A program made the translations under genes and the position numbers. From the IMG/VR virus record IMGVR_UViG_3300048927_000759, positions 1 through 51,063 of that record: a stretch of DNA of 51,063 nt. One strand, given 5' to 3'. The notes beneath the pieces are model-generated. The model was not told the DNA's origin and did not search any database. It was given only the letters and a program-made list of their open reading frames with translations. How positions within the stretch are numbered: position 1 is the stretch's first letter; each line of letters opens with the position of its first letter. Shown piece by piece: positions 2,424 to 48,747 of the stretch. This stretch comes from a virus.

Positions 2424-3584
2424 CTACCGTTCGTCGGGGTCTTTGGCTTGAGCAAAAGCCGCTTCCGCCTTGACTCCCGACTCGGAGTCTTCAGAGGGCA
2501 TCCACCGCCCGTAGATCGTGCGGATCATGCCCCAGTCCCTGTGCCCCATCTGCTGGGCCACCCACATTGGATGTTCGCCGGCGGACAGCATCATAGATGC
2601 ATAGGTATGGCGCGTCTGATACGGCCGCCGATAGCGCACGGCAGCGCGCTTCAGTGCTGGCGTCCATAGTGTCTTCCGGATGGCCTGGTCGCCCGTCCAG
2701 CGTTCGCCAGTGCGCGGATTCTGGAAAATTTCCTTCGCTTCCAGTGTGAATTGCTTTTGCGCTTCCAGTGCCTCTCTGGCTGGACGCAACAACTTCACGC
2801 TGCGGGTGCCTGCCGCCGTTTTCGTGGTTTCTGGTTCGGCGGCCGCCTGTGTCATGGCTCGGCTGATCCGGATTTCGCCACGAGACCAGTCGATATCATT
2901 CCAATCGACGGCGACCAGCTCGGATGTTCGCAAGCCAGTCCAGAACGCGAATTGAATCAGGTTTCGTGCCTGGCCAGTGAGCGCCGATAATATCGCGGCC
3001 TGCTCGTCGGCGGAAAATGGGTCGACGTCATCGACTTTGCCAACCGTCTCTCGCCTCTGATAGGTCCATCCTGCCATCGGGTTGGCCGGAATGATCTCTT
3101 CGTCCACCGCGTCATTGAGCGCAGATCGCAAGCAGCTTTGAATATTGCGCAGGGTTTTATTCGATACGTCGAGTTCATCGAACCAGTCGCGAAAATCTCG
3201 GCGGATCAGTTGCGCCAGCAGCCGGCCTTTGAATCGCGGGATTATCCGGTGATTCACTATTTTCTCGTAGCCCTGATATGTGCTGGCTTTGAGGTGCTTC
3301 TTCTTGCGGGGAAGCCACCAATCGAGAAATCCGGTGAGGGTGTCCTGGCGCATAAGGGGTGCGAACTGAGCTGCGCGCGGTGAATCGGGAAATGTTACCG
3401 CGTAATCGAATGTGCCTTTCTCAATCGCGTCGAGAATTGCTGCACGGTGCTGCTCAGCACGTTTCAGGTTAGCGGGCGTGGGCTTGAGCTGGATGCGTTC
3501 GCGGCAACGCGTGCCGCGGTATTGGAACGTGATCTCGATGCTGCTTGCAGAGGCTGCTTTGGCGCCGCGCCCATCTCTACCCAT
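2424..3584 (-). CDS. int: Phage integrase, tyrosine recombinase
   Basis: 386 residues. Residues ~15-65 look like the short N-terminal arm-DNA-binding domain (DUF3596 type), ~80-180 the SAM-like core-binding domain, and ~185-365 the catalytic domain. Catalytic residues visible: R219 (GLRTSEL), K255, R325 (PYQTRHTYAS, with Tyr in place of the first His of HxxR, common in this subgroup), H348 (MGHRD) and nucleophile Y358 (TIYGRW). It should recombine attP with the ssrA attB. It overlaps the excisionase gene by about 120 bp and lies 1 kb from attL, as expected. Confidence 0.95.
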   Translation of the reverse strand: MGRDGRGAKAASASSIEITFQYRGTRCRERIQLKPTPANLKRAEQHRAAILDAIEKGTFDYAVTFPDSPRAAQFAPLMRQDTLTGFLDWWLPRKKKHLKASTYQGYEKIVNHRIIPRFKGRLLAQLIRRDFRDWFDELDVSNKTLRNIQSCLRSALNDAVDEEIIPANPMAGWTYQRRETVGKVDDVDPFSADEQAAILSALTGQARNLIQFAFWTGLRTSELVAVDWNDIDWSRGEIRISRAMTQAAAEPETTKTAAGTRSVKLLRPAREALEAQKQFTLEAKEIFQNPRTGERWTGDQAIRKTLWTPALKRAAVRYRRPYQTRHTYASMMLSAGEHPMWVAQQMGHRDWGMIRTIYGRWMPSEDSESGVKAEAAFAQAKDPDER

Positions 3585-4232: not shown

Positions 4233-4550
4233 TCAGTGCTCATCGGTGCGGGCCTCCTGGTGACGCTTAAACACGACGCTGCATTCATCGTTGCGTTTCA
4301 GCTCGCGCCCATCAATGGCGCTGATCACCGTGTAGCCCATGCAGCGATGGTTATGGCGCGTGAAATCTGTCTCCGGCCTCTGGCATTGCGGGCGCCAGTC
4401 GCAGGCGCGGCAGATGTTGCCGAGCGACTGGGTTGCCACTGTCGATTTCAGGACCGCGTAATAGCCTACTGGCGCCTCGGTCGGGTCGAGCAGGCCGGGC
4501 ATCTTGCGCAGCAGATCCAACTGCTGAGGATTGCTCGGTACTTCACCCAT
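4233..4550 (-). CDS. Hypothetical phage protein, Cys/His cluster
   Basis: 105 residues. The middle (CRACDWRPQCQRP followed by HNHRC) has four Cys and two His in about 30 residues, which could bind a metal. No known family recognised. It overlaps the start of its upstream neighbour by 8 bp, within the leftward operon. Confidence 0.6.
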   Translation of the reverse strand: MGEVPSNPQQLDLLRKMPGLLDPTEAPVGYYAVLKSTVATQSLGNICRACDWRPQCQRPETDFTRHNHRCMGYTVISAIDGRELKRNDECSVVFKRHQEARTDEH

Positions 4551-5064
4551 TCCAATCCACCTTTGCGCTGAGAATGGCGCGCAGTCGTTGCATTGATTTC
4601 TTGGCCAGCTCAGTATCGCCTTCGCTCTGCGTGGTTATGTCGGCGAATTCGAGAAGATGCAGCAGGTCTGCTACCTCTGCCTGAAATACAACGTCGCCAA
4701 CTGTCTTCGGTACGATGCTCACCGCATCGCCCTGAGCGGGTCCATCCATAAACTTAAGTGCCCGCAATGTGTGCGCCTTGGAGTCATACCATGGCGGAAC
4801 CACAGGGAGAACCTCAATACCGTTTTCAGTTTCGATTTCCAAGTAATCAGGCGCACCATCCCACGGAACCGGCTCATCGCTGCTGGCGGGCTGGGCGGCA
4901 TCCCACGCAGCTTCAAACCCAGCTTCGTAAATCCGTTCGCGCTCTATGGTGCGAGTAATTTGAGGGCGCAGCTCGAAGTATTTATCTATCGATTTGTTGC
5001 GGGCCGATTCCATAAGTGCGCGAGCCATTTCATAACCGCCTGCTGCCTGATTGGGATCAGTCAT
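4543..5064 (-). CDS. Hypothetical phage protein
   Basis: 173 residues, acidic, mainly helical by composition, with Trp/Pro-rich centre (PVVPPWYDSKAHTLRALKF). It resembles the composite hypothetical proteins common in early regions of proteobacterial phages, but no defined domain is recognised. Context is the leftward operon only. Confidence 0.65.
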   Translation of the reverse strand: MTDPNQAAGGYEMARALMESARNKSIDKYFELRPQITRTIERERIYEAGFEAAWDAAQPASSDEPVPWDGAPDYLEIETENGIEVLPVVPPWYDSKAHTLRALKFMDGPAQGDAVSIVPKTVGDVVFQAEVADLLHLLEFADITTQSEGDTELAKKSMQRLRAILSAKVDWNG

Positions 5065-5067
5065 TGG

Positions 5068-5187
5068 TCAGTCCTCGTCAATCCAGATACGCCCGCAAAC
5101 ATTGCATTCACACTGCCATGCGCCGTGGCCAATAGCAGTGATGCGATAACTACGATGGAACAACCAACATTTAATCCTGTGCCACAT
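5068..5187 (-). CDS. Very small Cys-containing protein
   Basis: A 39-residue protein starting MWHRIKCWLFHRSYRI, with CECNVC near the end. AAGGGGG lies 7 bases upstream of the ATG at 5187, and the gene overlaps the upstream neighbour by 17 bp. The basic start and C-x-C-x-x-C end resemble small prophage zinc-ribbon-like proteins of the DUF1660 kind, but the match is weak. Confidence 0.5.
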   Translation of the reverse strand: MWHRIKCWLFHRSYRITAIGHGAWQCECNVCGRIWIDED

Positions 5188-5953
5188 CGCTGCCCCCTTG
5201 ATCGCGGGGCGGGGTTTTGAATGGCGCTCCGCAGTTGTAACAGACATCGCCAATCTTCGGGACGATCGACCGACAGCTTTGACACAGCACAGACCCTACC
5301 TCGAACGTGTTTTCCGGTATGGGGCGCGTGTTGATTGCCCCGGCCTCGCTAGTGGGGCGGGCGGCGGCTTGGAGATATTCGTCGATCATTTCGAGCGCTT
5401 CATTCACCAAATACGGGACGGCCCTTTCATGCGCCATCGTGGCGGCAGATACTTTGCCGCGAATTGCAAACAGCGCATCATCCGGCACCCCTGCCGATGT
5501 GGGGGCGGGCTTGTCTCGATATACGCTCCCGATTGCATCAGCAGCCAGATAAGCAAGCGTGCCAGCGTTATCCGGTCTGACTGCTGCTTCAGCCCAGCTT
5601 TTTACAATTGCGTGCACAACTGCATCCGCGTCCAGCCCCTCCCCGCGCACAGCAGCGGGCGGCGGGGCGGCGTTATAAGCGACACGCCAAATTTGAGCTG
5701 GCGCAACTACGCCGCTCGTGTCACGCATGTATTCATATTCGCGATCCATTTCTACGCGCATTTCTTTGGTCGGCTCGTACGGCACCAGCTTCCACCCATC
5801 CGGCAACGCCCGCGCTGCTTGCAAGCATTCATTGCTCTGCTGAATTTCAACTGGCCAGCGATTGGCTATAGCCAGTGCGAACAGTTGCGCCGGGCTATCC
5901 CAAAATATCTCGCTGCCTTGATCGTCTATTTGTGCAGTGATCGTCGCCATCAT
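5171..5953 (-). CDS. Hypothetical phage protein with C-terminal zinc ribbon
   Basis: 260 residues. A LPDGWKLVPYEPTKEM motif (residues ~50-66), widespread in phage hypothetical proteins, is followed by helical segments and a C-terminal CQSC...CYNC zinc-ribbon motif (residues ~222-241). Start and the RT stop overlap as TAATG at 5951-5955, so it is translationally coupled to the reverse transcriptase. Role unknown. Confidence 0.7.
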   Translation of the reverse strand: MMATITAQIDDQGSEIFWDSPAQLFALAIANRWPVEIQQSNECLQAARALPDGWKLVPYEPTKEMRVEMDREYEYMRDTSGVVAPAQIWRVAYNAAPPPAAVRGEGLDADAVVHAIVKSWAEAAVRPDNAGTLAYLAADAIGSVYRDKPAPTSAGVPDDALFAIRGKVSAATMAHERAVPYLVNEALEMIDEYLQAAARPTSEAGAINTRPIPENTFEVGSVLCQSCRSIVPKIGDVCYNCGAPFKTPPRDQGGSDVAQD

Positions 5954-7083
5954 TAAGCGCCTCGATAGATTTTTGTTAAGCCAATATTTACGGCTCGACC
6001 TCGCCGCAACACGATTTTCGCCAGATGTTCGCGATCGCTGCGGCTATGGCTTGCTTGTCCTAGCAAGCCGAAATAGCTGTTGGCGGTTTCGCGCATATCC
6101 TGCATCGGTACTGCGGCCGTGCGGCGCAGCGCTTGCTCGACGGTGCGGCGGCGTGTGATTCGGCGCCATGGTTTGATGATCTGTCCGACAAAATCGGCGC
6201 CGCGTGCGACTGGCTGCAGAATGGTTTTGCGTGGATTGAGCTGGGCGTGAAGCTGTTCGCGTAGCAACGTATCAATGCGTTCGCGAGCATTATTCAGCCA
6301 TTGGGGTGATTCGTGCAGCAGCAAAAAATCATCGACGTAGCGGATGTAATGTCGGCAACGCAGGCGATGTTTTACGAACTGGTCGAGCACGTCGAGATAG
6401 ACATTCGCAAAAAACTGGCTGCTGAGGTTGCCGATGGGTAGGCCGCAATGCGCCGGCTGGTTGGTCAACTGTTTATGTGCTGGCACCAGGCGCAACTGGT
6501 CTGGGCCGCCGCGCAGCTCGAAATCCTGTCGCGGGTCGTGCCATAACACCAAATCGGTCAGTGCCAGCCACCAAGTCTCAGTCACGCGCTTTGCCAGCAG
6601 CTCGCGCAGCACATGTTTGTCGATACTGACAAAAAAATTGGCGAGGTCGCATTTCAGGTAATAAATCGGCCGCGACCAGTTCTGGCTGGCGCTGCGAATT
6701 TTATTCTCCAGTCGTTTAGCTGCGTACAGAGTGCCTCGGCCGGGAATGCAGGCACAGCTGTCGGCGATGAATGACGCGTAGAAGCGCGGGGCAATTTTGT
6801 TGTACAGCAAGTGATGCACGATGCGATCGCGAAAATCTGCCGCCCACACCTCGCGCGGTTTTGGGCGCGTGACGACGAAGCAGATCGAGCGGCCGGGTTT
6901 GTAGCTGCCGTCGAGTAGCTCTTCGTAAAGTTCGTATAGGTTGCGCCCCATGTGTTGCTCGAAGGCGAGCGCGCTGGCGCTGTTGCGTTTGCTCTGCCGG
7001 CAATTGAAATAGGCTTGCAACAGATCGGAGAATAAAAAATCAGCATGGTTTGCAAGGGTAAAATCTGCGGACTGCGCGCGCAC
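5953..7083 (-). CDS. DGR reverse transcriptase
   Basis: About 376 residues from a GTG at 7083 that lies inside the template repeat; AAGGA is about 11 bases upstream. An in-frame ATG at 7122 is also inside the repeat, so the exact start is uncertain. Motifs: KCDLANFFVSID with catalytic D146, GLPIGNLSSQFFANVYLD (residues ~214-231) and YVDD at 249-252. The IGNLSSQ form, in place of the QGxxxSP of group II intron and retroviral enzymes, is diagnostic for diversity-generating retroelements. It should copy TR RNA into adenine-mutagenised cDNA. No maturase or endonuclease domain is present. Confidence 0.95.
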   Translation of the reverse strand: MRAQSADFTLANHADFLFSDLLQAYFNCRQSKRNSASALAFEQHMGRNLYELYEELLDGSYKPGRSICFVVTRPKPREVWAADFRDRIVHHLLYNKIAPRFYASFIADSCACIPGRGTLYAAKRLENKIRSASQNWSRPIYYLKCDLANFFVSIDKHVLRELLAKRVTETWWLALTDLVLWHDPRQDFELRGGPDQLRLVPAHKQLTNQPAHCGLPIGNLSSQFFANVYLDVLDQFVKHRLRCRHYIRYVDDFLLLHESPQWLNNARERIDTLLREQLHAQLNPRKTILQPVARGADFVGQIIKPWRRITRRRTVEQALRRTAAVPMQDMRETANSYFGLLGQASHSRSDREHLAKIVLRRGRAVNIGLTKIYRGA

Positions 7084-7164
7084 GAAGCTTGTTGTCCTTG
7101 TCGTTGTTGTTCTGGTTGCCATCGTCGAAGTTCTGATACCAGGCGTTGTTCGCTGAGTACTGCG
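7062..7164 (-). repeat. DGR template repeat (TR), 103 bp
   Basis: Read on the minus strand this encodes, in the target-gene frame, QYSANNAWYQNF then DDGNQNNNDKDNKLRARAV. It contains eight AAC codons, the hallmark of an adenine-rich template. It aligns without gaps to three variable repeats of the same length. The GC-rich 3' part (CTTCGTGCGCGCGCAGTCCG) is identical in all four copies. It lies between avd and the RT, overlapping the RT start, and is not followed by the hairpin that follows each variable repeat. Confidence 0.96.
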
Positions 7165-7320
7165 CAATGCCGTGCTGTTCACGTCGCCCTGCCGAAGGCT
7201 TGCGCCGATCAGCGGGGTAACTGCGCTAGACCTGCAAGGCCTGTTGCCTGCGGTTTCCGTGATGCGCTTGACCGTCGCCGGATGGACGAGGGGCACGACC
7301 AGATTTAAAATCGCACGGGC

Positions 7321-7340
7321 ATGAGCGCCGTGACGCTCAT
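7321..7340 (-). other. Hairpin at the avd 3' end / start of TR leader RNA
   Basis: ATGAGCG-TCACGG-CGCTCAT on the minus strand is a perfect 7-bp stem with 6-base loop. It overlaps the avd stop codon and begins the 172-bp non-coding leader (7165-7336) that precedes TR. Upstream RNA beside avd is known to be part of the functional template RNA in studied DGRs; a structural role here is inferred. Confidence 0.5.
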
Positions 7341-7699
7341 ACGACAGGCGCGGATGCACTTTTACTACTCCTTTTCCAGCCGTTGGCCTGCTTGCCGATC
7401 GATGCGGTGAGTTGGATCGCTGAGGCATGCTGATTGACGCCAATGAAGCCTTTGTCTTTCAGTATGCGCATCAGAAAATCGATCGTCTCGGCGCGCTCGA
7501 TGATCTCCATCAGATGTGAAGACTTGTCGCGCGCCGCGTTCGCTCGGGCAATCAGGACCAATAGCTGGCAGCACTCATCACTGATGCGCGATCCGAGGCT
7601 CTGTTTGATGTCGCGGCGAATATTCTTCGTCACGTCAATGGCGAGGCTCAGAAGGTCGTAAGCGACCTTGAATATCGGCAATTGGTGATGGGTAGCCAT
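7337..7699 (-). CDS. avd: DGR accessory variability determinant
   Basis: 120 residues, mostly helical, basic C-terminus; size, charge and the pattern LPIFKVAYDLL near the N-terminus and IGVNQHASAIQLTASIGKQ near the C-terminus fit the Avd four-helix-bundle family (related to 23S rRNA intervening-sequence proteins). Avd forms a pentamer that binds the RT and template RNA and is required for mutagenic homing. It lies between the VR1 target and TR, the usual position. Confidence 0.9.
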   Translation of the reverse strand: MATHHQLPIFKVAYDLLSLAIDVTKNIRRDIKQSLGSRISDECCQLLVLIARANAARDKSSHLMEIIERAETIDFLMRILKDKGFIGVNQHASAIQLTASIGKQANGWKRSSKSASAPVV

Positions 7700-7718
7700 G
7701 CTGAAAAAACTCGCGTAA

Positions 7719-7735
7719 AGGGCGCTGCGCGCCCT
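7719..7735 (-). other. Hairpin downstream of VR1
   Basis: AGGGCGC-TGC-GCGCCCT, 7-bp stem and 3-base loop, 28 bp beyond the VR1 end. Equivalent hairpins lie 29 and 28 bp beyond VR2 and VR3. DNA hairpin/cruciform elements just downstream of VR are known to promote target recognition in the Bordetella phage DGR. Confidence 0.75.
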
Positions 7736-7747
7736 GAAATTACTGAA

Positions 7748-8365
7748 TTATCGAATTACCGATAATCTGCGGACTGCGCGCGCACGAAGCTTGTAGTCCT
7801 TGTCGTTGATGCCCTGGCCGCCACCGCCGAAGGTCTGACACCAGGCGCTGTCCGCTGAGAACTGCGTGCTGCTCCAGTACCAGCCATCTTCGAAAAGCTC
7901 CGGCACATTGACCCAGCACAGCCGCAATTCGCGGCGCGCGGCTAGATACCAGTCGTCATGACCTTCAATTGTCAGGCTGGATGCCCACTCGGCGGCGGGG
8001 TGATCATGAGCTGAGCTGGCTAAAGCCAATGTGTTGGCGTAGCCGTCGAGATCGCTTACAGCGCCCTCTATGGATTGTCCGCGTCCGCCAAACGTTATTT
8101 CACGAGAGAACCCGTCAGGACCGGCTGCTACGATCAGGTGATGATCGGTGGCGCCTTTTTCACCACGCACGATTCCCGCATAAATTCCGCCCGCTTGCTT
8201 CCAGTATTCACCGACGGCGGGTGGTTTGGTTTTATCTGTTGCCAGCGCTGCCAGCTCGACTGTGGGCTGCTGCAAACTGTCGAGAAAATTCTGAACGATG
8301 AGATGCGGAGGTAATTTGATCTGTGCGCCGCCGTACTCAAACTCGAACATCGTTGCTGTTGCCAT
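7748..8365 (-). CDS. DGR target protein 1 (C-type-lectin/DUF1566-like)
   Basis: 205 residues from the ATG at 8365 (GGAG six bases upstream). The C-terminal half has the DUF1566/Lcl pattern: DDWYLAARRELRL, then GWYWSSTQ and RARAVRR, a C-type-lectin fold in which variable residues line a ligand-binding face. VR1 encodes residues ~167-201, including WCQTFGGGGQGIN. It has about 50 extra N-terminal residues compared with target 3. No signal peptide or membrane segment is visible, so the product should be cytoplasmic unless exported by lysis or packaged in virions. Immediately upstream of avd. Confidence 0.93.
   Translation of the reverse strand: MATATMFEFEYGGAQIKLPPHLIVQNFLDSLQQPTVELAALATDKTKPPAVGEYWKQAGGIYAGIVRGEKGATDHHLIVAAGPDGFSREITFGGRGQSIEGAVSDLDGYANTLALASSAHDHPAAEWASSLTIEGHDDWYLAARRELRLCWVNVPELFEDGWYWSSTQFSADSAWCQTFGGGGQGINDKDYKLRARAVRRLSVIR
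7764..7866 (-). repeat. DGR variable repeat 1 (VR1)
   Basis: 103 bp, no gaps against TR. Thirteen substitutions, all at adenines of the coding-strand TR (for example AAC to GAC, AGC, ACC, GGC, ATC, TAC). The last 30 coding bases are invariant. Confidence 0.96.
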
Positions 8366-8394
8366 GGTGCTCTCCAAAAAAATCGCGCGTAAAG

Positions 8395-8406
8395 GCGCTG
8401 GGCGCC
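8395..8406 (-). other. Hairpin downstream of VR2
   Basis: GGCGC-TG-GCGCC (or 4-bp stem with CTGG loop), 29 bp beyond VR2. Shorter than the VR1 and VR3 hairpins but at the same position and in the same conserved spacer. Confidence 0.65.
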
Positions 8407-8419
8407 GAAAATTACCGAA

Positions 8420-9046
8420 TTACTGAATGATCAAGAATCTGCGGACTGCGCGCGCACGAAGCTCGTGGTCCTTGCAGTGGCCGCCCTGGTAGCCATCGTC
8501 GAAGCGCTGACCCCAGGCGCCGTCCGCTGAGTACTGCGTCGAGGTCCAGTACCATGTTTCGTGGAATGCTTCGGCGCCGCCGGCTCGCAATAATTCGACG
8601 CCGGTTTGCGAGGGTTCGGTTTCGCTATAGGCGTAAGTTGCCAGAGGCAGCGCGCTAGAGTTCTCGCCACTGCGCCACGTGTAGTTTTCTTCTTCGGTCG
8701 GCTTCAGGTGGCGATAGCAGATTTCGAGTTCGTCACGGCTCGGCAGATACCAGTCTGCATAACCATCAATGGATAACCCCAGCGCCCATTGCGCAAGTTC
8801 GAGCTTTGCTTCCGCCATAGCGCGCGTATTGGCAAGACCATCACTAAAGCTGCCGGTACCGGACATCTTGGTGTAATCGCTACTCCACACTCCGGGTGCG
8901 CGGTCGCCGGCTGTGCGCGGTGAAACAACGAGGGCAAAGTGATTTTGGCCGATGCGAAAGCGGCCGGCGTAGAAGCCTCCCTGAAATTGCGTGCCTGGTT
9001 TGGTTGGTGCTGCGCTTGCAGCGACATCTAAAACGGATGCGTTCAT
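8420..9046 (-). CDS. DGR target protein 2 (C-type-lectin/DUF1566-like)
   Basis: 208 residues from an ATG at 9046 (AAAGGA six bases upstream). ADWYLPSRDELEICY and TWYWTSTQ followed by RARAVRRFLIIQ are clear DUF1566/Lcl motifs. It has an insertion of roughly 35 residues between these two motifs compared with targets 1 and 3. VR2 encodes residues ~170-204 (GAWGQRFDDGYQGGH). No export signal. It is the most diverged target from the template (17 substitutions) and is followed by the conserved spacer and target 1. Confidence 0.93.
   Translation of the reverse strand: MNASVLDVAASAAPTKPGTQFQGGFYAGRFRIGQNHFALVVSPRTAGDRAPGVWSSDYTKMSGTGSFSDGLANTRAMAEAKLELAQWALGLSIDGYADWYLPSRDELEICYRHLKPTEEENYTWRSGENSSALPLATYAYSETEPSQTGVELLRAGGAEAFHETWYWTSTQYSADGAWGQRFDDGYQGGHCKDHELRARAVRRFLIIQ
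8436..8538 (-). repeat. DGR variable repeat 2 (VR2)
   Basis: 103 bp, no gaps against TR. Seventeen substitutions: fifteen at TR adenines and two not (TAT to GGT at its first base; GAC to TGC at its first base). Confidence 0.96.
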
Positions 9047-9062
9047 GGTTCGTCCTTTGTGT

Positions 9063-9563
9063 TCAGCTTTCATAATTAGGAATAGGGTTGATCAGATCGC
9101 CGCGGCCGTTCGTCGAAACGTAGTCGCGGTAATAGACTTTGCGGGCCGGGTTTCCTGTCATGAAGCCCCAGCGGTTGCGCTTACGACCCATAATGAACAG
9201 CGTCCATACGCCGTCACGTGAAACCTGACTGATTCGATGAAATGTCTCGGCGCTGGCCGCGCGGGTATCGCCGCGACGGCGAACGCGTGTCAGGCCGAAA
9301 ACATCTTCTTCGAAGTACCATCCATGCAAAACGATCGTTCGCCAGTTCCATGGATGGGCATGCAGATAGGGGTCGGCATCTTCGCGTTTGATGTGGTGAA
9401 TGCGGATTGAAAACGGCAGTTTCCACGTGAAAGGGACCAGCCAGAAACGATGCATGTAGCCACCGATGTGGAGGTAAGGACGACGGGACGCTAGTGCAAT
9501 AAGCGCCGCGGCTATTGCCGGGTGGGCGCAAAAACGCGCAAAGAGTTGCCAAACTGTTTCCAT
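9063..9563 (-). CDS. Cupin-like phage protein
   Basis: 166 residues. RIHHIKREDADPYLHAHPWN and a following GWYFEE give the His/His...Glu pattern of a double-stranded beta-helix (cupin) metal site; a weakly hydrophobic N-terminal helix precedes it. Similar proteins occur in many phage genomes without assigned function. It ends 16 bp before target 2. Confidence 0.65.
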   Translation of the reverse strand: METVWQLFARFCAHPAIAAALIALASRRPYLHIGGYMHRFWLVPFTWKLPFSIRIHHIKREDADPYLHAHPWNWRTIVLHGWYFEEDVFGLTRVRRRGDTRAASAETFHRISQVSRDGVWTLFIMGRKRNRWGFMTGNPARKVYYRDYVSTNGRGDLINPIPNYES

Positions 9564-9827
9564 TTATCTCGCCTTATAAAGCCAAAATTTCATGTGAACC
9601 ACGCCGTTACCATCGGCGCGCATTTCATCGATCGCTGGCGTCATGTGCTGTCGCATCAGTGATCCATAATCGCAGGGTTGTTTGGTGCGAAATTCAGTTT
9701 GAAGAATCTCGCCGTTGGCGCCCTCTGCCCACAATTTCACCAACCACCGCTGCGCTCGCCGTGGCATCGGCTGATGCCATCGCGGCCGCTCGCCGTCGAT
9801 TGCGCTGTCGAAGCAGGCGATTGGCAT
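9564..9827 (-). CDS. Small hypothetical protein
   Basis: 87 residues from ATG at 9827, which overlaps the stop of the preceding peptide gene as TGATG. No family recognised; Trp- and Arg-rich. Ends directly before the cupin-like gene. Confidence 0.6.
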   Translation of the reverse strand: MPIACFDSAIDGERPRWHQPMPRRAQRWLVKLWAEGANGEILQTEFRTKQPCDYGSLMRQHMTPAIDEMRADGNGVVHMKFWLYKAR

Positions 9828-9898
9828 CAACCACGGGATACCAGCATCGAGATAATCGCCACATAGCAAAGCAGCACGAAAATGATTCCAAACAACAT
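9827..9898 (-). CDS. 23-residue membrane peptide
   Basis: MLFGIIFVLLCYVAIISMLV plus SRG is almost entirely one transmembrane helix. Its stop overlaps the next start codon (TGATG). No strong ribosome site is seen, so it could be a real small membrane protein or a leader for coupled translation. Confidence 0.4.
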   Translation of the reverse strand: MLFGIIFVLLCYVAIISMLVSRG

Positions 9899-9937
9899 AG
9901 GGCGAAGGCTGGGCTTATGATTGCGTTGCGTCATGGC

Positions 9938-10231
9938 TCAACCCGCCAGCGAGGTTTCGGTATTACGCAACGCCACATCGAGTGCGGCGCACATCACCAA
10001 ACGCTTTATGGCCGGGTCGACCGCCATCTGCGTTTCAAGCAGCTCGCAGACATGGGCAGCGGCAACGCGGGGGCATCCGTAGCGGCGCAGTTGAGCGGTG
10101 ACGAAGGGGACAAAGCGTTCGACGGTGCCGGAATAACTTTCGCCGAGCTGATCACGGATCTGATCGCGCATTGTCAGCAGGCGTATCGATTCGCGGATCT
10201 CGCGGTTGTTCTTCACTCGCTGTTGCGTCAT
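9938..10231 (-). CDS. Hypothetical protein
   Basis: 97 residues, basic N-terminus, helical. AAGGTGGAAAGCG precedes the ATG. No recognised domain; two Cys separated by 8 residues (CPRVAAAHVC) may be structural. Overlaps the upstream gene by 80 bp. Confidence 0.6.
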   Translation of the reverse strand: MTQQRVKNNREIRESIRLLTMRDQIRDQLGESYSGTVERFVPFVTAQLRRYGCPRVAAAHVCELLETQMAVDPAIKRLVMCAALDVALRNTETSLAG

Positions 10232-10367
10232 CGCTTTCCACCTTCACAAAAAGTTGATAACCAATATCCATCAGAGAGGGCCAGCGGCCTTTAGCGCGTT
10301 CCCGGGCGATAATCTCCATCGCCTCTTCGTAGTTTTTGCATGGCGTCAATCGGTGGTGCGGCGCCAT
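10152..10367 (-). CDS. Small hypothetical protein
   Basis: 71 residues from ATG 10367 (AGGA eight bases upstream). It overlaps both neighbours by about 77-80 bp in other frames, unusually long even for this operon. The C-terminal third is charged and low-complexity. No family recognised. Confidence 0.45.
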   Translation of the reverse strand: MAPHHRLTPCKNYEEAMEIIARERAKGRWPSLMDIGYQLFVKVESDDATASEEQPRDPRIDTPADNARSDP

Positions 10368-10623
10368 CAAGAATGTCCTGTATCAGTGCTCGGCCTTTTG
10401 GCTTCACGGTGGTGACCAAATAGGCGTTGTCTTTGTTGGTGGAGTCGCAGTGCCACTCACCTTGTTCGAGCGCAAAATATCCGTCGTTGATAAACACTGT
10501 TCGCGCCCAGTTGTTGGAGCCAATCGCGCCGAATTCGCGCAGTTTCTTGAATACCAGGTTTCTGCTGACGCCCATTTCCTTCGCCACCTCGGTGATCGTT
10601 GGAAACCGGCGTGGCGCTTTCAT
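10291..10623 (-). CDS. KilA-C/antirepressor C-terminal-domain-like protein
   Basis: 110 residues. PTITEVAKEMGVSRNLVFKK then LREFGAIGS...VFINDGYF...YLVTTVKPKGRALI follows the pattern of the phage antirepressor C-terminal (KilAC) DNA-binding domain, here without the usual N-terminal Bro/Ant domain. The ATG at 10623 overlaps the upstream stop as ATGA, which settles the start. It may modulate transcription of the prophage; direct evidence is lacking. Confidence 0.65.
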   Translation of the reverse strand: MKAPRRFPTITEVAKEMGVSRNLVFKKLREFGAIGSNNWARTVFINDGYFALEQGEWHCDSTNKDNAYLVTTVKPKGRALIQDILDGAAPPIDAMQKLRRGDGDYRPGTR

Positions 10624-10736
10624 CTCACGCACTCGGCGGCGTTGCGTGTGCCATTCAGGCAGGGCGTACGGTTATCCTCCGTCACCACGTAGGCGTGCGC
10701 GGCGAAGATAAGCAGCAACGCTGCCAGCGCTTTCAT
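10620..10736 (-). CDS. 38-residue secreted peptide
   Basis: MKALAALLLIFAAHAYVVTE has a Lys start, a hydrophobic core and an AHA cleavage-like site, followed by a short mature part with two Cys. It is bracketed by TGATG with the dNMP kinase and ATGA with the KilA-C-like gene, so the coupling supports translation. Function unknown. Confidence 0.55.
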   Translation of the reverse strand: MKALAALLLIFAAHAYVVTEDNRTPCLNGTRNAAECVR

Positions 10737-11326
10737 CACGCGGCCGGCCGGCGCAGCAGCTGATCGACCGCCTGCGTCACCTGCTGGTGCAGAAAATCCA
10801 CTGTTTGCGTATTGGCGATCACAAACTCGCCGTACTCTGGCGCGATGCCGCTTTCGCTGATGTGTTCGCGCACATTGATCTTGGCAACGTGGGGACTTCC
10901 GTCATTGCGCACATGCACCAGGCTGCCGTGATTGCGCACGAACTCGGCCTCGTTGGGAAAGCGCACATCGCTGATGACCACGCCCACAAATTCATGGCTG
11001 AGCGTTTCTTCGATCCACGCGAGGCGGTTGCGCACGGCGTGCACCCAGATATCCGGATGAATCAGGTTGCGGCCCCACTCGGTGCCGAGCGTTTGTAGAA
11101 CGTGGCGGGGGCTGCGATCGCAAAGCTGCTTCATCGGCTGATCTTTGACGTCGCGGTTTTCGAGCATGCCAACAAGGTTTTCGCGCGACATCGCGAGCAT
11201 TGCCGCGACCATGTCGTACAGCGGCGCCGCGAACGACAGCTCGCAAAAGTTTTCGTGATTGACCAAAAATTTGGCGATGGTCGATTTACCTGATCCGGCT
11301 GGGCCGGTGAGTCCGATAATCAGCAT
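10736..11326 (-). CDS. Deoxynucleoside monophosphate kinase
   Basis: 196 residues with a P-loop near the N-terminus (GLTGPAGSGKST, residues 5-16), an LQTLGTEWGR motif and VVISDVRFPNEAEF, all typical of phage dNMP kinases (T4 gp1-like family). These phosphorylate dNMPs to dNDPs to raise precursor pools for phage DNA synthesis. It lies in the leftward operon with the DGR; dNTP supply would also matter for reverse transcription, though a link is only inference. Confidence 0.85.
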   Translation of the reverse strand: MLIIGLTGPAGSGKSTIAKFLVNHENFCELSFAAPLYDMVAAMLAMSRENLVGMLENRDVKDQPMKQLCDRSPRHVLQTLGTEWGRNLIHPDIWVHAVRNRLAWIEETLSHEFVGVVISDVRFPNEAEFVRNHGSLVHVRNDGSPHVAKINVREHISESGIAPEYGEFVIANTQTVDFLHQQVTQAVDQLLRRPAA

Positions 11327-11505
11327 GTAGTTGCATCCTTGAGAGGTTGGTTGGCGCGGTCCAGTGCGCGTGCAAGTGCCTGCGCCTGTGGGTTCGGGCG
11401 CATCTCCAGCGAGTTGGCGTTGTGGGTAATCAGATCGCAGCCGATCGACTGCGCGAATTCAGCAATCGCGACAAATGCCGTCTCGTTGGGAATGGTGATT
11501 TGCAT
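11320..11505 (-). CDS. Small hypothetical protein
   Basis: 61 residues from ATG 11505 with GGAGG close upstream. It overlaps the kinase start by 7 bp. No family recognised. Its ribosome site belongs to the conserved spacer that follows VR3. Confidence 0.6.
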   Translation of the reverse strand: MQITIPNETAFVAIAEFAQSIGCDLITHNANSLEMRPNPQAQALARALDRANQPLKDATTC

Positions 11506-11534
11506 GACCGCCTCCAAAAAAAATTCGCGCGTAA

Positions 11535-11549
11535 CGGCGCTGCGCGCCG
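11535..11549 (-). other. Hairpin downstream of VR3
   Basis: CGGCGC-TGC-GCGCCG, perfect 6-bp stem, 28 bp beyond VR3, in the same spacer context as the hairpins after VR1 and VR2. Confidence 0.75.
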
Positions 11550-11561
11550 AAAATTACCGAA

Positions 11562-12062
11562 TTACTGAATGATCAATAATCTGCGGACTGCGCGCGCACG
11601 AAGCTCGTCGTCCTTGTCGTAGCCGTACTGGCCGCCACCGCCGAAGGTCTGACACCAGGCGTAGTCCGCTGAGTACTGCGTTGACGACCAATGCCAGTTG
11701 TCGACGATCAGGTCGGGCGCGACGAGTTTCACCAGACGCAATTCGTGGCGGGCGGGAAGATAGAAATCGTGATGGCCGCCGATCTGCAGATCGAGCAGGG
11801 CGCCGGCAAGCTCACTGGCGGCTTCTGCCATGGCGATGGTGTTGGCCTTGCCATCCCAATCGGAATTGGCCAAGGCCACTTTCGCGGAGCGTGCATGCCA
11901 CTGCACATCCTTAAACAGCGCGCGCGGATCCGTGGCGGCGATCAGGTGGTAGTCCGGCTGACCGTGCTGGCCGGGGCAGACGCCGATGTATATGCCGCCC
12001 TGTTCGGGCCATGGCTGGCCGATACGGGGGATGGCGGTGGTGGTGAGTTGGGTGGTGGTCAT
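11562..12062 (-). CDS. DGR target protein 3 (C-type-lectin/DUF1566-like)
   Basis: 166 residues; GGGAG lies just before the ATG. HDFYLPARHELRL and NWHWSSTQ followed by RARAVRRLLIIQ show the DUF1566/Lcl domain; VR3 encodes residues ~128-162 (YAWCQTFGGGGQYGY). It is the shortest target and the promoter-proximal gene of the whole leftward operon, 8 kb from the RT. No signal peptide. The EQGGIYIG region is shared with target 1 (KQAGGIYAG), so these are paralogues beyond the variable repeat. Confidence 0.93.
   Translation of the reverse strand: MTTTQLTTTAIPRIGQPWPEQGGIYIGVCPGQHGQPDYHLIAATDPRALFKDVQWHARSAKVALANSDWDGKANTIAMAEAASELAGALLDLQIGGHHDFYLPARHELRLVKLVAPDLIVDNWHWSSTQYSADYAWCQTFGGGGQYGYDKDDELRARAVRRLLIIQ
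11578..11680 (-). repeat. DGR variable repeat 3 (VR3)
   Basis: 103 bp, no gaps against TR. Fourteen substitutions, all at TR adenines. It shares the substituted block TGT CAG ACC TTC GGC followed by GGT GGC GGC with VR1. Confidence 0.96.
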
Positions 12063-12082
12063 GGGTGTGCTCCCGGTTGTCT

Positions 12083-12098
12083 AGTAACAGATTACTAA
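12083..12098. promoter_or_regulatory. Operator O1
   Basis: TAGTAA-CAGA-TTACTA, perfect 6-bp inverted repeat with 4-bp spacer. Same motif as three other sites in the prophage, two of them at the repressor/cro switch. It overlaps the likely -10 of the leftward promoter. Confidence 0.75.
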
Positions 12099-12118
12099 TC
12101 AATCGCGAGGCGGTCAAG
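12090..12118 (-). promoter_or_regulatory. Leftward operon promoter (pL-like)
   Basis: TTGACC (-35, 12118-12113 on the minus strand), 17-bp spacer, TAATCT (-10, 12095-12090), then target 3 starts at 12062. The -35 agrees well with sigma-70, the -10 is weak. Operators O1 and O2 overlap the -10 and -35. It should drive the DGR, integrase and associated genes. Confidence 0.55.
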
Positions 12119-12132
12119 TAACAAATTACTAA
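12117..12132. promoter_or_regulatory. Operator O2
   Basis: AAGTAA-CAAA-TTACTA, same inverted half-sites AGTAA/TTACT as O1, with centres 34 bp apart. It abuts the -35 of the leftward promoter. Confidence 0.75.
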
Positions 12133-12245
12133 ATATTTTCGATGCCGATTTTTTTCGATTTTGCTTCTACACTCATCGAATGTGCGCCAGCTATTACGGG
12201 TACAGATGCAACGACAGAAATTTGGCCAATATCAAGGATCGGATA

Positions 12246-12734
12246 ATGAAAAGACTACTCACGCTGATGCTCGCAGTTCTGGTGGCAGGCTGTGGCCACA
12301 GCGCAATCAATTATCGCCCTTCGCCCCCCGCAAATATGACTTGGGCCCGAGCTGTTTCTATCATTGAACGCGGGTTTTATGAGGATTATGGAGACCAAAA
12401 AACACAGGCAGTTCAAGTTACTGAAGAGGCTATCATTCTTTCAGACGGGAGCATTACCACCACGAGAGGTATCGGTACTGCGCTGCCTGTTTATGGGACA
12501 GCTATCGTTGCGACGAATAGCGTTGGGAAAACTGTTGCCGCGGGACAACACATCTATCTTGCAGCATTGGAGCCCAGCATTGTCGTAGAGCGTAACGGTC
12601 GTGACAATCGATTTGCCGTGATCATCAGAACAGAGCCTGGTATTACCGCGCGCCGTGTATTTTTCCGATCACAAGCCCGTGCTACAGAGTTTGCTGATGC
12701 AATCGAATATCTTCACCGATCCAGGCCGGATTAA
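12246..12734 (+). CDS. Prophage lipoprotein
   Basis: 162 residues from ATG 12246 (AAGGAT upstream). MKRLLTLMLAVLVAGCGHS is a lipoprotein signal with lipobox VAGC. The mature part has no recognised family and ends in alternating charged/hydrophobic strands. It is the only rightward gene between two leftward transcription units, converging on the repressor with a 9-bp gap, and reads more AT-rich than its neighbours: the profile of a moron expressed from the prophage and altering the host envelope (inferred). Confidence 0.75.
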   Translation: MKRLLTLMLAVLVAGCGHSAINYRPSPPANMTWARAVSIIERGFYEDYGDQKTQAVQVTEEAIILSDGSITTTRGIGTALPVYGTAIVATNSVGKTVAAGQHIYLAALEPSIVVERNGRDNRFAVIIRTEPGITARRVFFRSQARATEFADAIEYLHRSRPD

Positions 12735-12743
12735 TTTGCAGTT

Positions 12744-13103
12744 CTATTTATCTTGTTTATTGACCGTGTAGGCTGCCTCGCGCTCAGCAACCATCTCAAT
12801 GTGCTTGCGCCCGTCAGGGGATGAGCCTACGTAATTCTGGTAGATTTTGGCGATTCTGCCGCTGCCGATCAGCTCATCGGGAAGGCTGGGAATAATGAGT
12901 TGCCAGCCGGTTAACCCCCACGCGGCAGCTAATTTTTCGATGTTATCCAGGCTGGTCGCCGTGCGCTGGTTAACTACATTGTTGATCGTTTTTTGTGATA
13001 CCCCTGAAATTTTCGCAAGATCCTCCTCGCTCTGATTATGAATACTCATTAGGTGCTTGACGTTACGCGCCAGCGCTTCGCGAGGCATAAGCTTTTGTTT
13101 CAT
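12744..13103 (-). CDS. CI-like HTH repressor
   Basis: 119 residues if started at MKQKLMPREALARN. The XRE helix-turn-helix is SEEDLAKISGVSQKTINNVV. The frame is open to 13202, but that extension reads through operator O3, so the shorter start is preferred; no good ribosome site is seen for either. There is no LexA/S24 cleavage domain, so induction may depend on another factor. Divergent from cro, with shared operators; expected to silence cro and the leftward operon. Confidence 0.75.
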   Translation of the reverse strand: MKQKLMPREALARNVKHLMSIHNQSEEDLAKISGVSQKTINNVVNQRTATSLDNIEKLAAAWGLTGWQLIIPSLPDELIGSGRIAKIYQNYVGSSPDGRKHIEMVAEREAAYTVNKQDK

Positions 13104-13154
13104 TGGGTTTAGTAACCGAGTTCGTAATCTCCCGTTAATGCTATCGGAGCGTTT

Positions 13155-13170
13155 TAGTAATGTATTACTT
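13155..13170. promoter_or_regulatory. Operator O3
   Basis: TAGTAA-TGTA-TTACTT in the repressor-cro interval, overlapping the -35 of the rightward promoter by two bases. Confidence 0.75.
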
Positions 13171-13198
13171 GACTGCGCTGTGATTTTATCCATAGACT
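13169..13198 (+). promoter_or_regulatory. Rightward early promoter (pR-like)
   Basis: TTGACT at 13169-13174, 18-bp spacer, TAGACT at 13193-13198, followed by operator O4 and the cro start at 13226. Flanked by O3 and O4, as expected of a repressor-controlled early promoter. Confidence 0.6.
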
Positions 13199-13200
13199 TC

Positions 13201-13216
13201 AAGTAATCCGTTACTA
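13201..13216. promoter_or_regulatory. Operator O4
   Basis: AAGTAA-TCCG-TTACTA, ten bases before the cro start codon, centre 46 bp from O3. Together the four sites give WAGTAA-N4-TTACTW. Confidence 0.75.
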
Positions 13217-13225
13217 GGTGTGATC

Positions 13226-13426
13226 ATGAAAAAGACGTTGCTTGATGAAACTGTCGAGCTTTTGAAAGAGGATAAGGGTGATTGGCGGAATACTGCCGTT
13301 GCGACTGGTCTGGGTTATGACTGGCTTTCCAGCCTGTCTCAGGGGCGCATTCAAGATCCAGGTGTGAAGAAAATCGAAACGCTGCACCGTTATCTCAAAG
13401 AAAAGCTTTCCAATTCTGCTGCCTGA
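13226..13426 (+). CDS. Cro-like HTH regulator
   Basis: 66 residues; NTAVATGLGYDWLSSLSQGR is a Cro/XRE-type helix-turn-helix. AGGTG precedes the ATG at 13226. It is the first rightward gene, divergent from the repressor with O3 and O4 between, and a terminator-like hairpin follows. By position it should repress the repressor gene and favour lytic growth. Confidence 0.75.
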   Translation: MKKTLLDETVELLKEDKGDWRNTAVATGLGYDWLSSLSQGRIQDPGVKKIETLHRYLKEKLSNSAA

Positions 13427-43688: not shown

Positions 43689-44101
43689 GCGCCGAGCAGA
43701 TCATCGCCGCGGCGCGCGCGCAGCTCGGCGTGCGCTTCCAGCACCAGGCGCGGGCGCCGGGCCTCGCGCTCGATTGCGCCGGACTGCTGGTGCATGTGCT
43801 CGATGTACTAGGCCTTCCGTATGTCGACGAGCGGGGCTATCCGCGCCAGCCGTACAAAGGGCTGATCAAATCCATCCTCGACGCGCAATCCTCGCTGCGC
43901 CTGCTGCCGAATAAATCCGAGGCCGCCGCGGGCGATGTGCTGCTGATGCGCCTGAAAATCGAACCGCAACACGTCGCGATTTACACCGGCAAAACGATCA
44001 TCCATTCGTATTCGCAGGTCGGCAAAGTCGTCGAGCACGACCTCACGCCCGACTGGTTGCGACTTATTACCAACGTCTACCGCATCGAGCCCGCCGCATG
44101 A
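43685..44101 (+). CDS. Tail-tip NlpC/P60-type peptidase
   Basis: 138 residues. LALDCAGLL (C31) and EPQHVAIY (H96) form the catalytic Cys-His pair of NlpC/P60 domains. It likely cuts peptidoglycan cross-links during DNA ejection. ATGA overlaps with both neighbours. Confidence 0.9.
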   Translation: MSAEQIIAAARAQLGVRFQHQARAPGLALDCAGLLVHVLDVLGLPYVDERGYPRQPYKGLIKSILDAQSSLRLLPNKSEAAAGDVLLMRLKIEPQHVAIYTGKTIIHSYSQVGKVVEHDLTPDWLRLITNVYRIEPAA

Positions 44102-47100
44102 GTCTCAGCGCAACCCTGTTCGGTCGCGATTCATTAATTTTCAAAGCGACCAATGTTCTCGGCCTAGGCATACCCGGCTTTCTCGATCGCAAGTTCGGCG
44201 TGCCCGATCCAGTAGATCCAGTAGCGAACACCGATTTCCAAACCTCCACCTACGGCGTGCCACTACCACGCCATTACGGCACCGTGCCGGCCGTCGGCAA
44301 TATTTTCTGGCTGGAAGGCGGCAAACTCAGAGCCGTCACGAAAAAGAAAAAGCAGGGTGGCAAAGGCGGCGGCGGGCAAACGGTAAAAACCATCGAATAC
44401 TTCGCCACGTTCGCCGTGGCGCTGGCCGATACCAGCAAGACAGGTCCAATCGCCGGCATACGCCGCATCTGGATCGGCCCCAATCTTTGGTACAACGCCG
44501 GCAGTAACGATCTGCAAACAATCATCGCCGGCAATCAAAACACCGGCGGCAGCCTCACGGGGCCGCTGTCGGGCATCGCTTCACTGACGAGTAAATTCGG
44601 CTTCGGTGGCGATAAATGTCGCGTTTACCTCGGCACCGATGATCAAGAGCCTGATCCACGCATGCAGGCGGACATTGGCGTTGATAACTGTCCTGCGTAT
44701 CGCAATACCGCCTACATTGTTTTTTATGATTTTCCGCTCAGTGAAAAATATGGCGGGAGCTTGCAGGCAGCGCAGGTGAAGGCGGAGTTGGTGACGGACC
44801 AGAATGGCACCGGCCTACGCCTTTACGATGTAGCCACGCAAAATTCGATAGTCTTGAACGACACGGCAACTATTGCTTCAATGTCGGGCGGAATATTCTC
44901 GTTTAGCGCAGATCCGGCCGATCCTCGTCCGCAGGCTGGTGACTTTACTAACTTTAAAAAGTATCGCTACTCGCTCACGCAGGAAAAATTCATATCAGTC
45001 GCTGACGACGACAAATCCTACACCGCGCCGAATTTAGAGACGTTCAATTATCCGATCGGAATCGCTGGCGATTGGTCCTGGTCATATCACTTCAGTAGTT
45101 CGCCAGATGCTGCTCGAATTGCCGGAAGCTCGACCGAAGGCGATTCAATAATTTTGGCGCCCTATATTGGCGAAAGCGTAATTTCTTTCGGTTCATACGT
45201 CGTCGACTCGCTATTGTATGTATTCAGGAAGCGCGTTGACGGATCGTGTTACTACGAAATTTACAATGGAAATTCCCTATCGTCGACCGGGGAAATCTTG
45301 AATTCCGATGGTACGCCGTACACCGAAGAAATTGGAAATTATACCTATCACATCGATGCGGGCGGTACACCTATAGTTGAGGTTGGCGGCCAAGCGCTAT
45401 GGATTGTTAGCGCTGTATCGCCGCGGGTAAGCGTTTTTCTATTAAGCGACAATGGCGATTTTAATTTCATCGAAGGCATAAACTTTTCATTTGGCACTAA
45501 TCAGGTTTGGGGGGCTGCGGCAGATGGCGTGCTATCGGTGGCTTACCGATCAACCATCGCTAGCTTTGTAAGGTCAGTGGTTTCCAGTTCAGTTTTGCCA
45601 GAGCTGGCCGATATTGTTACGCAAGAACTGCTTTTATCATCACTCATAGAAACTTCGGATATTGAAGCCTCCGAACTGATAGACATTGTGCGTGGATACA
45701 GCATTGCAAGTGGTTCCATTCGAAATGGTATCGCTCCTCTGCAGGGCGCTTATCCCTTCGACTTAATTCCTAGTGGCTACACGATCAAAGGTGTCCCTCG
45801 CGGACAGGATCCAGTCGCCACTATCAACCTTTCGGAGCTGGGTGCGGTTGCTGGTTACGGCATGGCTGATGTGATTCTCGATCAGCCGCGCGAGATGGAT
45901 ACACAATTACCGCGCGAGGTATTTGTCAAATACCTAGATCCCGATCGAGATTACGATACCAATGAGCAGTCTTGGGCCCGCAGCTCAACCGATTCAGTAA
46001 ACGTCGAGCGACTCACATTCAATATTTCACTTTTCGCAGACGAGGCGCGCGGCATTGCCCAAGTTATTTGCTTTGTAAGATGGCTGGAGCGGAACGATTA
46101 TTCCTTCACGCTACCTCCAATATACAGCGACATCGAGCCCGCCGATGTAATAACCATTAGCACGCCCTACGCGCAATTTTCTGTTCGATTGGCGGAGATA
46201 AATAATCGCGCCGATGGGGTGAGAGAGTGCAAAGCGAAGCCGAATGCTCCGGCGCTATATGCCGCAAATGCCGTCGGCGGTCAGGGCGTGATACCTGACG
46301 GAGAGATGACTTTCCCATCAGAGATGGTTCTTTTCTTGGCGGATATCCCCCTAATCAGGGATATCGACAACGAGCCTGGTTTCGGCGCAGCGGTGGCTGG
46401 ATATTCTGACAATTGGCCCGGTGGGTTCATTTTCGAATCTAACGACAACGAGCAGACTTATACCGACATTCAGTCGGCCAGCGCTCCGGTAACAATGGGG
46501 ACTGCACGCAATGCATTGGGCACAGATGATGGCACCAATACTGACTTCGTCGGCGCATTACAAATTGATCTCATTGCTGGATCTTTGGAGTCCATTACAT
46601 CAGATCAGTTTTACACCAGCTTGCAATGGTGTGCTTATGGCGATGATCAGCGATGGGAGTTAATTCGGTTTCAAAATGCAGCTATTCAACTAGACGGCAG
46701 CTATATATTGACTACGCTCGCGCGGGGTTGTCGTGGTACTGAATGGGCGACCGGACTGCACCTCGTAGGGGATAAATTTATCTTTCTCGATGATGCAGAT
46801 ATGCTTTTCATCGGTTCTTCTACAGCATCCATCGGTATTCAAAAATATTACAAAGCAGCTACTTTTGGGCGAACTATCGACGAAGTATCTTCTCAGTCGT
46901 TCACGTATCGAGGCGTGAATCTCAAGCCGTTGAGCCCTGTGTATTTAACAGCATCCAATGTCGGTGGCGACTGGTCGGTAGACGCTTCAAGAAGAAGTCG
47001 ACTCTCAAGCAGTTGGTGGACATCGGGTGTAGAGCCTCCTCTTGGAGAGGGTCATGAGCTGTATGAAATGGATATTCTGAATGGAGGGGTTGTTGTAAGG

Positions 47101-48394: not shown

Positions 48395-48747
48395 TGGTGG
48401 AGGCGGGGGGAGTTGAACCCCCGTCCGCTAGTCCGCTGCCTTTGGCTCTACATGTTTAGGTTCCGTTAATTGATTTAACTTGCTACAGCCCAACGGGCAG
48501 GACGTAGCTCGCGATCCCGTAAGGTTTTAATCGTTTGGCACCGGGCGGGCCGCACGCTTAGTCAGATAAAGTGACAGTTGGTTTTCCTATCTGACGTCAG
48601 TCACCAACTGCAAGCAGCCCTTAGGCTGCGAGAGCGTACGATTCGTCGTTTGCGACTATTCGTGTACAGCTTTGGATTAACGTGATTCGCTGCCATCACG
48701 ACATGCACCTCAGGTTTTGATACCAACGTCGAATCCGTATCGCCCCC
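48395..48747 (-). ncRNA. ssrA: tmRNA
   Basis: 353 nt. The 5' end GGGGGCG pairs with CGCCUCC before the ACCA 3' end (48395-48398 on the plus strand reads TGGT). The tag frame at 48653-48621 encodes ANDESYALAA then UAA. GGGUUCAACUCCCCC is the T-arm. It rescues stalled ribosomes with SmpB, encoded just upstream. The prophage uses its 3' end as attB; the terminal CCA in this copy now lies at the phage-derived junction. Confidence 0.95.
48398..48420. repeat. attR core within tmRNA
   Basis: Identical to 1416..1438. Here it is part of the functional tmRNA 3' end, so integration keeps the gene intact. Confidence 0.9.

Follow-up and report, generated by a model that had tools for sequence, protein, structure and literature searches.

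Repressor-type operators shared by the immunity switch and the predicted promoter of a DGR operon in a putative lambda-like prophage and its relatives

In the prophage-like virus record described here, the promoter predicted for the operon of a diversity-generating retroelement (DGR), a targeted-hypermutation system, carries the same operators as the divergent repressor/cro switch. The record (IMGVR_UViG_3300048927_000759, 51063 bases) was analyzed at full length and is referred to below as the window. It is very likely that the repressor and Cro control the leftward promoter, pL, and the DGR would belong to the leftward early operon. Comparison of related loci indicates that the same OL/OR layout, built from other operator sequences, is present in dozens of related phages.

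The record is best explained as a temperate prophage whose immunity region is of the lambda kind. A 23-bp direct repeat occurs at 1416-1438 and 48398-48420, and the second copy sits at the end of a tmRNA gene (48395-48747). The two copies are likely att sites. The record thus resembles a prophage of about 47 kb integrated in ssrA, together with host flanks. The integrase gene (2424-3584, minus strand, identified with Pfam) is located at the far end of the leftward region. The immunity repressor is an HTH_3 protein of 119 aa (12744-13103, minus strand; Pfam 4.5e-7, with PHROG matches to transcriptional repressors). It is accompanied by a divergent gene for a 66-aa Cro-like protein (13226-13426, plus strand; phrog_9425 transcriptional repressor, 9.8e-9), which gives the gene pair of a lambda-type switch. 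Pfam and PHROG scans of the repressor revealed no peptidase domain, including the RecA-cleavable S24 type. Cleavage in the SOS response is therefore not the expected trigger, and induction need not follow that route. Single-sequence searches with the repressor and Cro returned no relatives in the viral_contigs set, nor did a repressor search of genome_contigs and the phage collection.

Between the repressor and OL lies a lipoprotein-like gene (12246-12734, plus strand), recognized by eye, for which no family was found. This slot holds a variable accessory gene. Genes judged lipoprotein-like by eye also occupy it in L017 (1026-1391) and L060 (4017-4544), whereas L019 carries a BstA-like abortive infection protein there (4539-5693; phrog_6287, 2.8e-91). 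In the window, L017 and L019, the slot gene is on the strand opposite to the repressor.

The operator is a 16-bp dyad, WAGTAA-N4-TTACTW, with four exact matches in the 51-kb record. As the initial annotation had claimed, two of these WAGTAANNNNTTACTW matches lie at the leftward promoter and two between repressor and cro. The OL pair consists of TAGTAACAGATTACTA at 12082-12097, which overlaps the -10 hexamer of the predicted pL, and AAGTAACAAATTACTA at 12116-12131, which overlaps the edge of its -35 hexamer. The OR pair consists of TAGTAATGTATTACTT at 13155-13170, overlapping the -35 edge of the predicted rightward promoter, pR, and AAGTAATCCGTTACTA at 13201-13216, just past its -10 hexamer. 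The starts first given for the OR sites (13155 and 13201) were accurate, while those given for the OL sites (12083 and 12117) proved to be one base late. The spacing is 34 bp in the OL pair and 46 bp in the OR pair. The former is found about 20 bp ahead of the start codon of target 1, the first leftward gene, and the latter in the repressor-cro gap; no other promoter in the record carries the dyad. The motif search of the whole record that had been called for yielded these four sites and no fifth 16-mer with up to two mismatches. Base composition predicts about 0.005 exact sites per record, compared with the four present. With two mismatches allowed, 4 of 100 dinucleotide shuffles reached four matches (mean 1.16), whereas the real sites are all exact. 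The 14-mer core AGTAAN4TTACT has four exact occurrences in the record, none with one mismatch and five with two, and two of these five fall in repeats that follow two of the variable repeats (VRs). A half-site at 13110 was weighed as part of a possible third operator, for autoregulation, close to the start of the repressor gene; it was rejected, as its other arm has no match.

The predicted pL (TTGACC-17-TAATCT, 12089-12117, minus strand) has the best minus-strand score between 5900 and 12200, and the start codon of target 1 lies about 27 bp beyond it. Its match to the consensus is weak, and 88% of 300 dinucleotide shuffles equal its score. For this reason the predicted promoter, though top-ranked on the operon's minus strand, was not accepted as evidence in its own right. 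Its placement at the operator edge agrees with that in other members of the family. The predicted pR reads TTGACT-18-TAGACT (13169-13198, plus strand). On the leftward strand, the 12116-12131 operator continues into TTGACC, and TAATCT follows 17 bp on, inside the 12082-12097 operator. On the rightward strand, the 13155-13170 operator continues into TTGACT, and TAGACT stops 2 bp short of the 13201 operator. The operator thus enters the -35 hexamer in identical register at both sites, and the operators overlap the hexamers of the predicted promoters as in a lambda-type OL/OR circuit. A consensus scan of the minus strand between 5500 and 12200 returned no promoter-like or terminator-like site, and the same scan also misses pL. 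Weaker minus-strand promoter candidates were detected near the reverse transcriptase (RT) gene, at 7055 and 5979, by a weight-table scan. Given these candidates, the blindness of the consensus scan to pL and a pL score within the range of shuffles, the RT may also be expressed at a low level from another promoter, independently of the repressor.

The leftward region contains the components of a DGR, all on the minus strand. The RT gene (5953-7041, start not fixed) matches RVT_1 at 1.5e-13, a bAvd-like Avd gene is located at 7337-7699 (Pfam 5.2e-16), and an RT-15 RNA (Rfam RF03018, 165 bits) at 7163-7353 directly precedes the 102-nt template repeat (TR) core at 7063-7164. An RVT_1 RT, Avd and an RT-associated RNA, as expected of a DGR, are all present. 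Target 1 (11562-12062) opens the leftward operon and matches phrog_4245 and, below the Pfam cut-off, Lcl_C (2.6e-7); target 2 (8420-9046) has an Lcl_C domain, and target 3 (7748-8365) a match to Lcl_C below the Pfam cut-off. Each of them contains a VR. Relative to the TR core, the VRs differ at 14, 17 and 13 positions, and 14 of 14, 15 of 17 and 13 of 13 of these are TR adenines, in line with the initial annotation of three targets. Inspection by eye revealed no obvious signal peptide in any of the three. The tail gene at 44098-47904 is distant from all of them. Between targets 1 and 2, at 9063-11326, the leftward operon includes a deoxynucleoside monophosphate kinase (phrog_139) and a phrog_4786-like protein (cysteine dioxygenase). 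Similar GC-rich hairpins come after the VRs, one behind each (11500-11560, 8376-8420 and 7704-7747), and in every case a T run stands a short way from the stem. Terminators at these places were considered by eye and rejected, since the T run does not adjoin the stem and the minus-strand scan finds none. We take these structures to be, more likely, the hairpin known to follow target repeats in DGRs.

The operator itself was used to locate relatives of the immunity module. Together with the RT profile, it provided a route to relatives where single-protein searches had given none. Viral contigs were scanned for two AGTAAN4TTACT sites within about 50 bp, which gave 55 contigs, and the window repressor and Cro were compared with these by tblastn (matches listed up to E 0.05). 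Three of the 55 encode relatives of the repressor and/or Cro (E 6e-6 to 2e-14): L053 both (repressor 34% over 74 aa, Cro 39% over 56), L019 a Cro relative (47% over 55) and L017 a repressor relative (31% over 85). The other 52 contigs showed no repressor or Cro relative by tblastn. In all three, the dyad is present at the repressor/cro start (6666 and 6689 in L053, 3740 and 3763 in L019, 14 in L017), and a second pair occurs beyond the repressor (8379 and 8402, 5803 and 5836, 1531 and 1565, respectively). The spacings of these five pairs (34 bp in L017; 23 and 33 bp in L019; 23 and 23 bp in L053), inspected later, fall inside the bins found for the wider family (23-26, 33-35 and 45-46 bp). In L053 and L019, TTGAC adjoins the edge of the operator. 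OL heads Erf/exonuclease genes in L017 and a region with a ParB-like gene and integrase in L053. None of the 55 contigs has an RT match. Immunity modules of this type can thus stand without a DGR, at least within the stretches of L017, L019 and L053 analyzed. Three further contigs (L032, L037 and L038) have two AGTAAN4TTACT pairs about 270 bp apart and no recognized repressor or Cro relative.

Related DGR loci allow the shared-operator layout to be assessed independently of the particular dyad. Seven phages have RTs 63-68% identical to that of the window. In each of them the DGR is on the repressor strand. Five of the phage records annotate both repressor and integrase in place or name them, and there the DGR lies between the two; for SC_8 and zrk29-1, the repressor assignment came from ORF lists. 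An RT profile search matched at least 80 viral and at least 80 genome loci. The matches listed, the window and the seven phages form a set of 168 loci, 130 of which have more than 5 kb ahead of the RT. Among these 130, a repressor-like ORF was found upstream on the RT strand in 74, on the other strand only in 3 and not at all in 53, so that a same-strand upstream repressor was absent by ORF search of the sequence covered in 56. The ORF search misses some repressors, because L065 is among the 53 blanks though its record annotates one. The test set comprised 66 of the loci listed (63 distinct; 65 selected by script and L065 by hand), each with a repressor, a divergent ORF and enough sequence. 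Each dyad pair detected close to the start of the repressor gene was looked for in the 2.5-kb stretch that follows this gene, and the score in a locus's own stretch was ranked against scores of the same dyads in the stretches of other loci, in one run with fixed settings.

Operator sharing within the own stretch was significant at p<0.05 in 45 of the 66 loci listed, of which 43 are distinct, compared with 3.3 expected, and at p<0.02 in 39. Control stretches of the same loci gave 1 of 51 to the left of the switch, 2 of 53 just before the RT and 1 of 54 after it. The test failed in 21 loci. Two of these share sites by eye (L064, p 0.09; L065, p 0.75), L141 is identical in sequence to L064, and the other 18 were counted as misses. 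These failures, like the 56 of 130 loci in which the ORF search gave no upstream repressor on the RT strand, count against the interpretation. Among the 43 distinct loci listed, TTGAC lies within the OL span in 26 (versus 15% of mismatched pairs), and the operator spacing falls into the three bins named above in 40 (versus 21% of mismatched pairs, the bins having been chosen post hoc). In the same 43 loci, similar operators go together with more similar repressors (mean 29.9 versus 7.0 bits, reached in 0 of 2000 permutations) and with more similar Cro ORFs (p 0.0015). Common descent of the whole immunity region may explain part of this covariation. The operators differ among phages, which suggests that immunity modules are swapped while the DGR stays in pL. 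The earlier proposal that the DGR promoter and the immunity switch share repressor/Cro operators thus gains support both from the operator-matched contigs with homologous repressor or Cro and from the layout in these 45 loci with its negative controls.

No boxA-like site was found near OL in the window, and boxA-type antitermination was rejected there as unsupported. Within 250 bp after OL, the boxA-like GCTCTTTAACA is exact in four of the 45 relatives listed (L060, L087, L105 and L168) and present with one mismatch in L067 and L094. With up to two mismatches, such a site occurs in 8 of 45, versus 1 of 45 in the upstream control. This sequence similarity hints at antitermination of the DGR operon in the relatives that carry the site, the window excepted.

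In phage lambda, immunity is governed by CI and Cro acting at the operators OL and OR. The window resembles lambda in its divergent repressor and cro genes with operators between them, in the recurrence of these operators at the leftward promoter beyond the repressor, and in a leftward region that extends to the integrase. Unlike lambda, it has a leftward operon with a DGR and three targets, two operators found per promoter rather than three, spacings of 34 and 46 bp, an opposite-strand lipoprotein-like gene between repressor and OL, and a repressor without a recognized peptidase domain. The lambda and P22 repressors are RecA-cleavable and of the S24 type, a trait not needed for the OL/OR layout. 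The DGR of Bordetella phage BPP-1 has Avd, TR and VR and adenine specificity, as does that of the window, and its RT is 31% identical to the window RT over 62% of the query. The BPP-1 target Mtd is described as a virion protein in the part of PMC11792537 consulted, whereas the window targets are small Lcl_C proteins of an early operon.

Burkholderia phage Magia (NC_070954) belongs to the same DGR clade, with an RT 64% identical to that of the window. The first leftward gene beyond its OL is likewise a lectin-fold DGR target on the repressor strand, and its OL operators flank or overlap TTGACA and TATAAT and match the dyads between its repressor and cro. The order at 5314-5352 is operator, TTGACA, operator, TATAAT. 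The operator sequence differs, being ATAACC..GGTTAT in Magia and AGTAA..TTACT in the window. In the portion of the Magia announcement available (PMC7883833), the DGR and the repressor are noted, and the words promoter and operator do not appear. A CI-like repressor is also tied to DGR activity in the hankyphage, a Mu-like transposable Bacteroides phage with a tail-fibre target, in both of which respects it differs from the window. According to the sections of PMC12135933 consulted, silencing of RepCHP raised the expression of most phage genes and DGR activity, and its loss gave virions with active DGR mutagenesis; operators at the DGR promoter are not described in those sections. The main text of PMC8144416 does not contain the words temperate, lysogen, promoter, expressed, early or repressor. 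In the literature listings and passages searched, repressor operators are nowhere described at the promoter of a DGR, nor is a textbook lambda-type immunity circuit with a DGR as payload; an earlier report in print may exist.

From these features we infer operator binding, occlusion and repression of pL, a single leftward transcript and the timing of its expression. The repressor (12744-13103) and Cro (13226-13426) would both recognize the AGTAA-N4-TTACT dyad. The operon started by the predicted pL would open with target 1, continue through genes of nucleotide metabolism to targets 2 and 3, and extend across Avd, the TR RNA and the RT. In the lysogen, repressor dimers on OL would cover the -35 edge and the -10 hexamer, occlude pL and keep the operon low. 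During infection, before repressor accumulates, or upon induction, pL would fire, and targets, template RNA, Avd and RT would be made together, with Cro later damping pL. Repressor operators on the DGR operon promoter thus imply that hypermutation is probably off in dormancy and on during infection or induction. That Avd and RT in particular are silent in lysogens through repression of pL is judged fairly likely, with less assurance than the control of pL itself.

Chance recurrence of an AT-rich dyad, to which the four-match shuffles at two mismatches lend something, is close to negligible given four exact sites against 0.005 expected, paired at two promoters. Binding by a host regulator instead of the phage proteins is very improbable. 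The dyad is indeed simple and AT-rich, and its assignment to repressor and Cro comes from sequence comparison, but it is confined to two promoters of the record, homologous repressor or Cro genes adjoin it in contigs picked out by the dyad scan, and relatives in the clade show different dyads at the two corresponding positions.

More serious alternatives accept repressor control of pL and concern its reach and its meaning. A weak constitutive promoter might serve Avd, the TR RNA and the RT, so that only the targets and bulk expression would track the prophage state and lysogens would hypermutate at a low level. We regard this as doubtful, though a real contender. The minus-strand candidates at 7055 and 5979 speak for it, as does a terminator annotated in the Magia record ahead of the DGR cassette, upstream of the second target, and so do hankyphage lysogens, a different phage type, which the consulted sections of PMC12135933 present as DGR-active in ordinary culture. 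Against it stand the lack of minus-strand promoter and terminator matches in the consensus scan of 5500-12200, a scan that misses pL too, and, by eye, the lack of a T run directly after the stem in the hairpin-like repeats behind the target VRs. Control by the repressor might also be real and incidental, shuffling of the early region having placed the DGR in pL with no selection on timing. This we consider nearly an even proposition, leaning slightly against. In lambda, OL serves recombination genes, and same-operator phages without a DGR likewise use OL for recombination (L017) or ParB-like genes (L053). The DGR nevertheless lies behind OL in 43 distinct loci listed, whose operators and repressors vary. 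Such constancy is compatible with selection on timing but is no proof of it.

Repressor/Cro control of the DGR operon, as favored here, bears directly on when phage DGRs act, a subject described as little studied in the part of PMC11792537 available. Shared operators would provide a direct rule, with the DGR off in lysogeny and on in infection or induction, and this layout opens the question of when phage DGRs are active to tests in isolated phages of the clade. Removal of the repressor would be a way to turn the DGR on at will. Targets among the early genes separate these DGRs from those of tail operons. More tentatively, and with the odds against it, a clade of temperate phages of proteobacteria may have retained its DGR in an early operon under repressor control while the immunity module was exchanged many times. 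The lectin-fold targets, which are small, apparently cytoplasmic and not part of the virion on this view, would then be hypermutated in the first minutes after infection or induction. If this is true, the diversified proteins would act inside the cell rather than as tail adhesins, for example in counter-defence or superinfection conflict.
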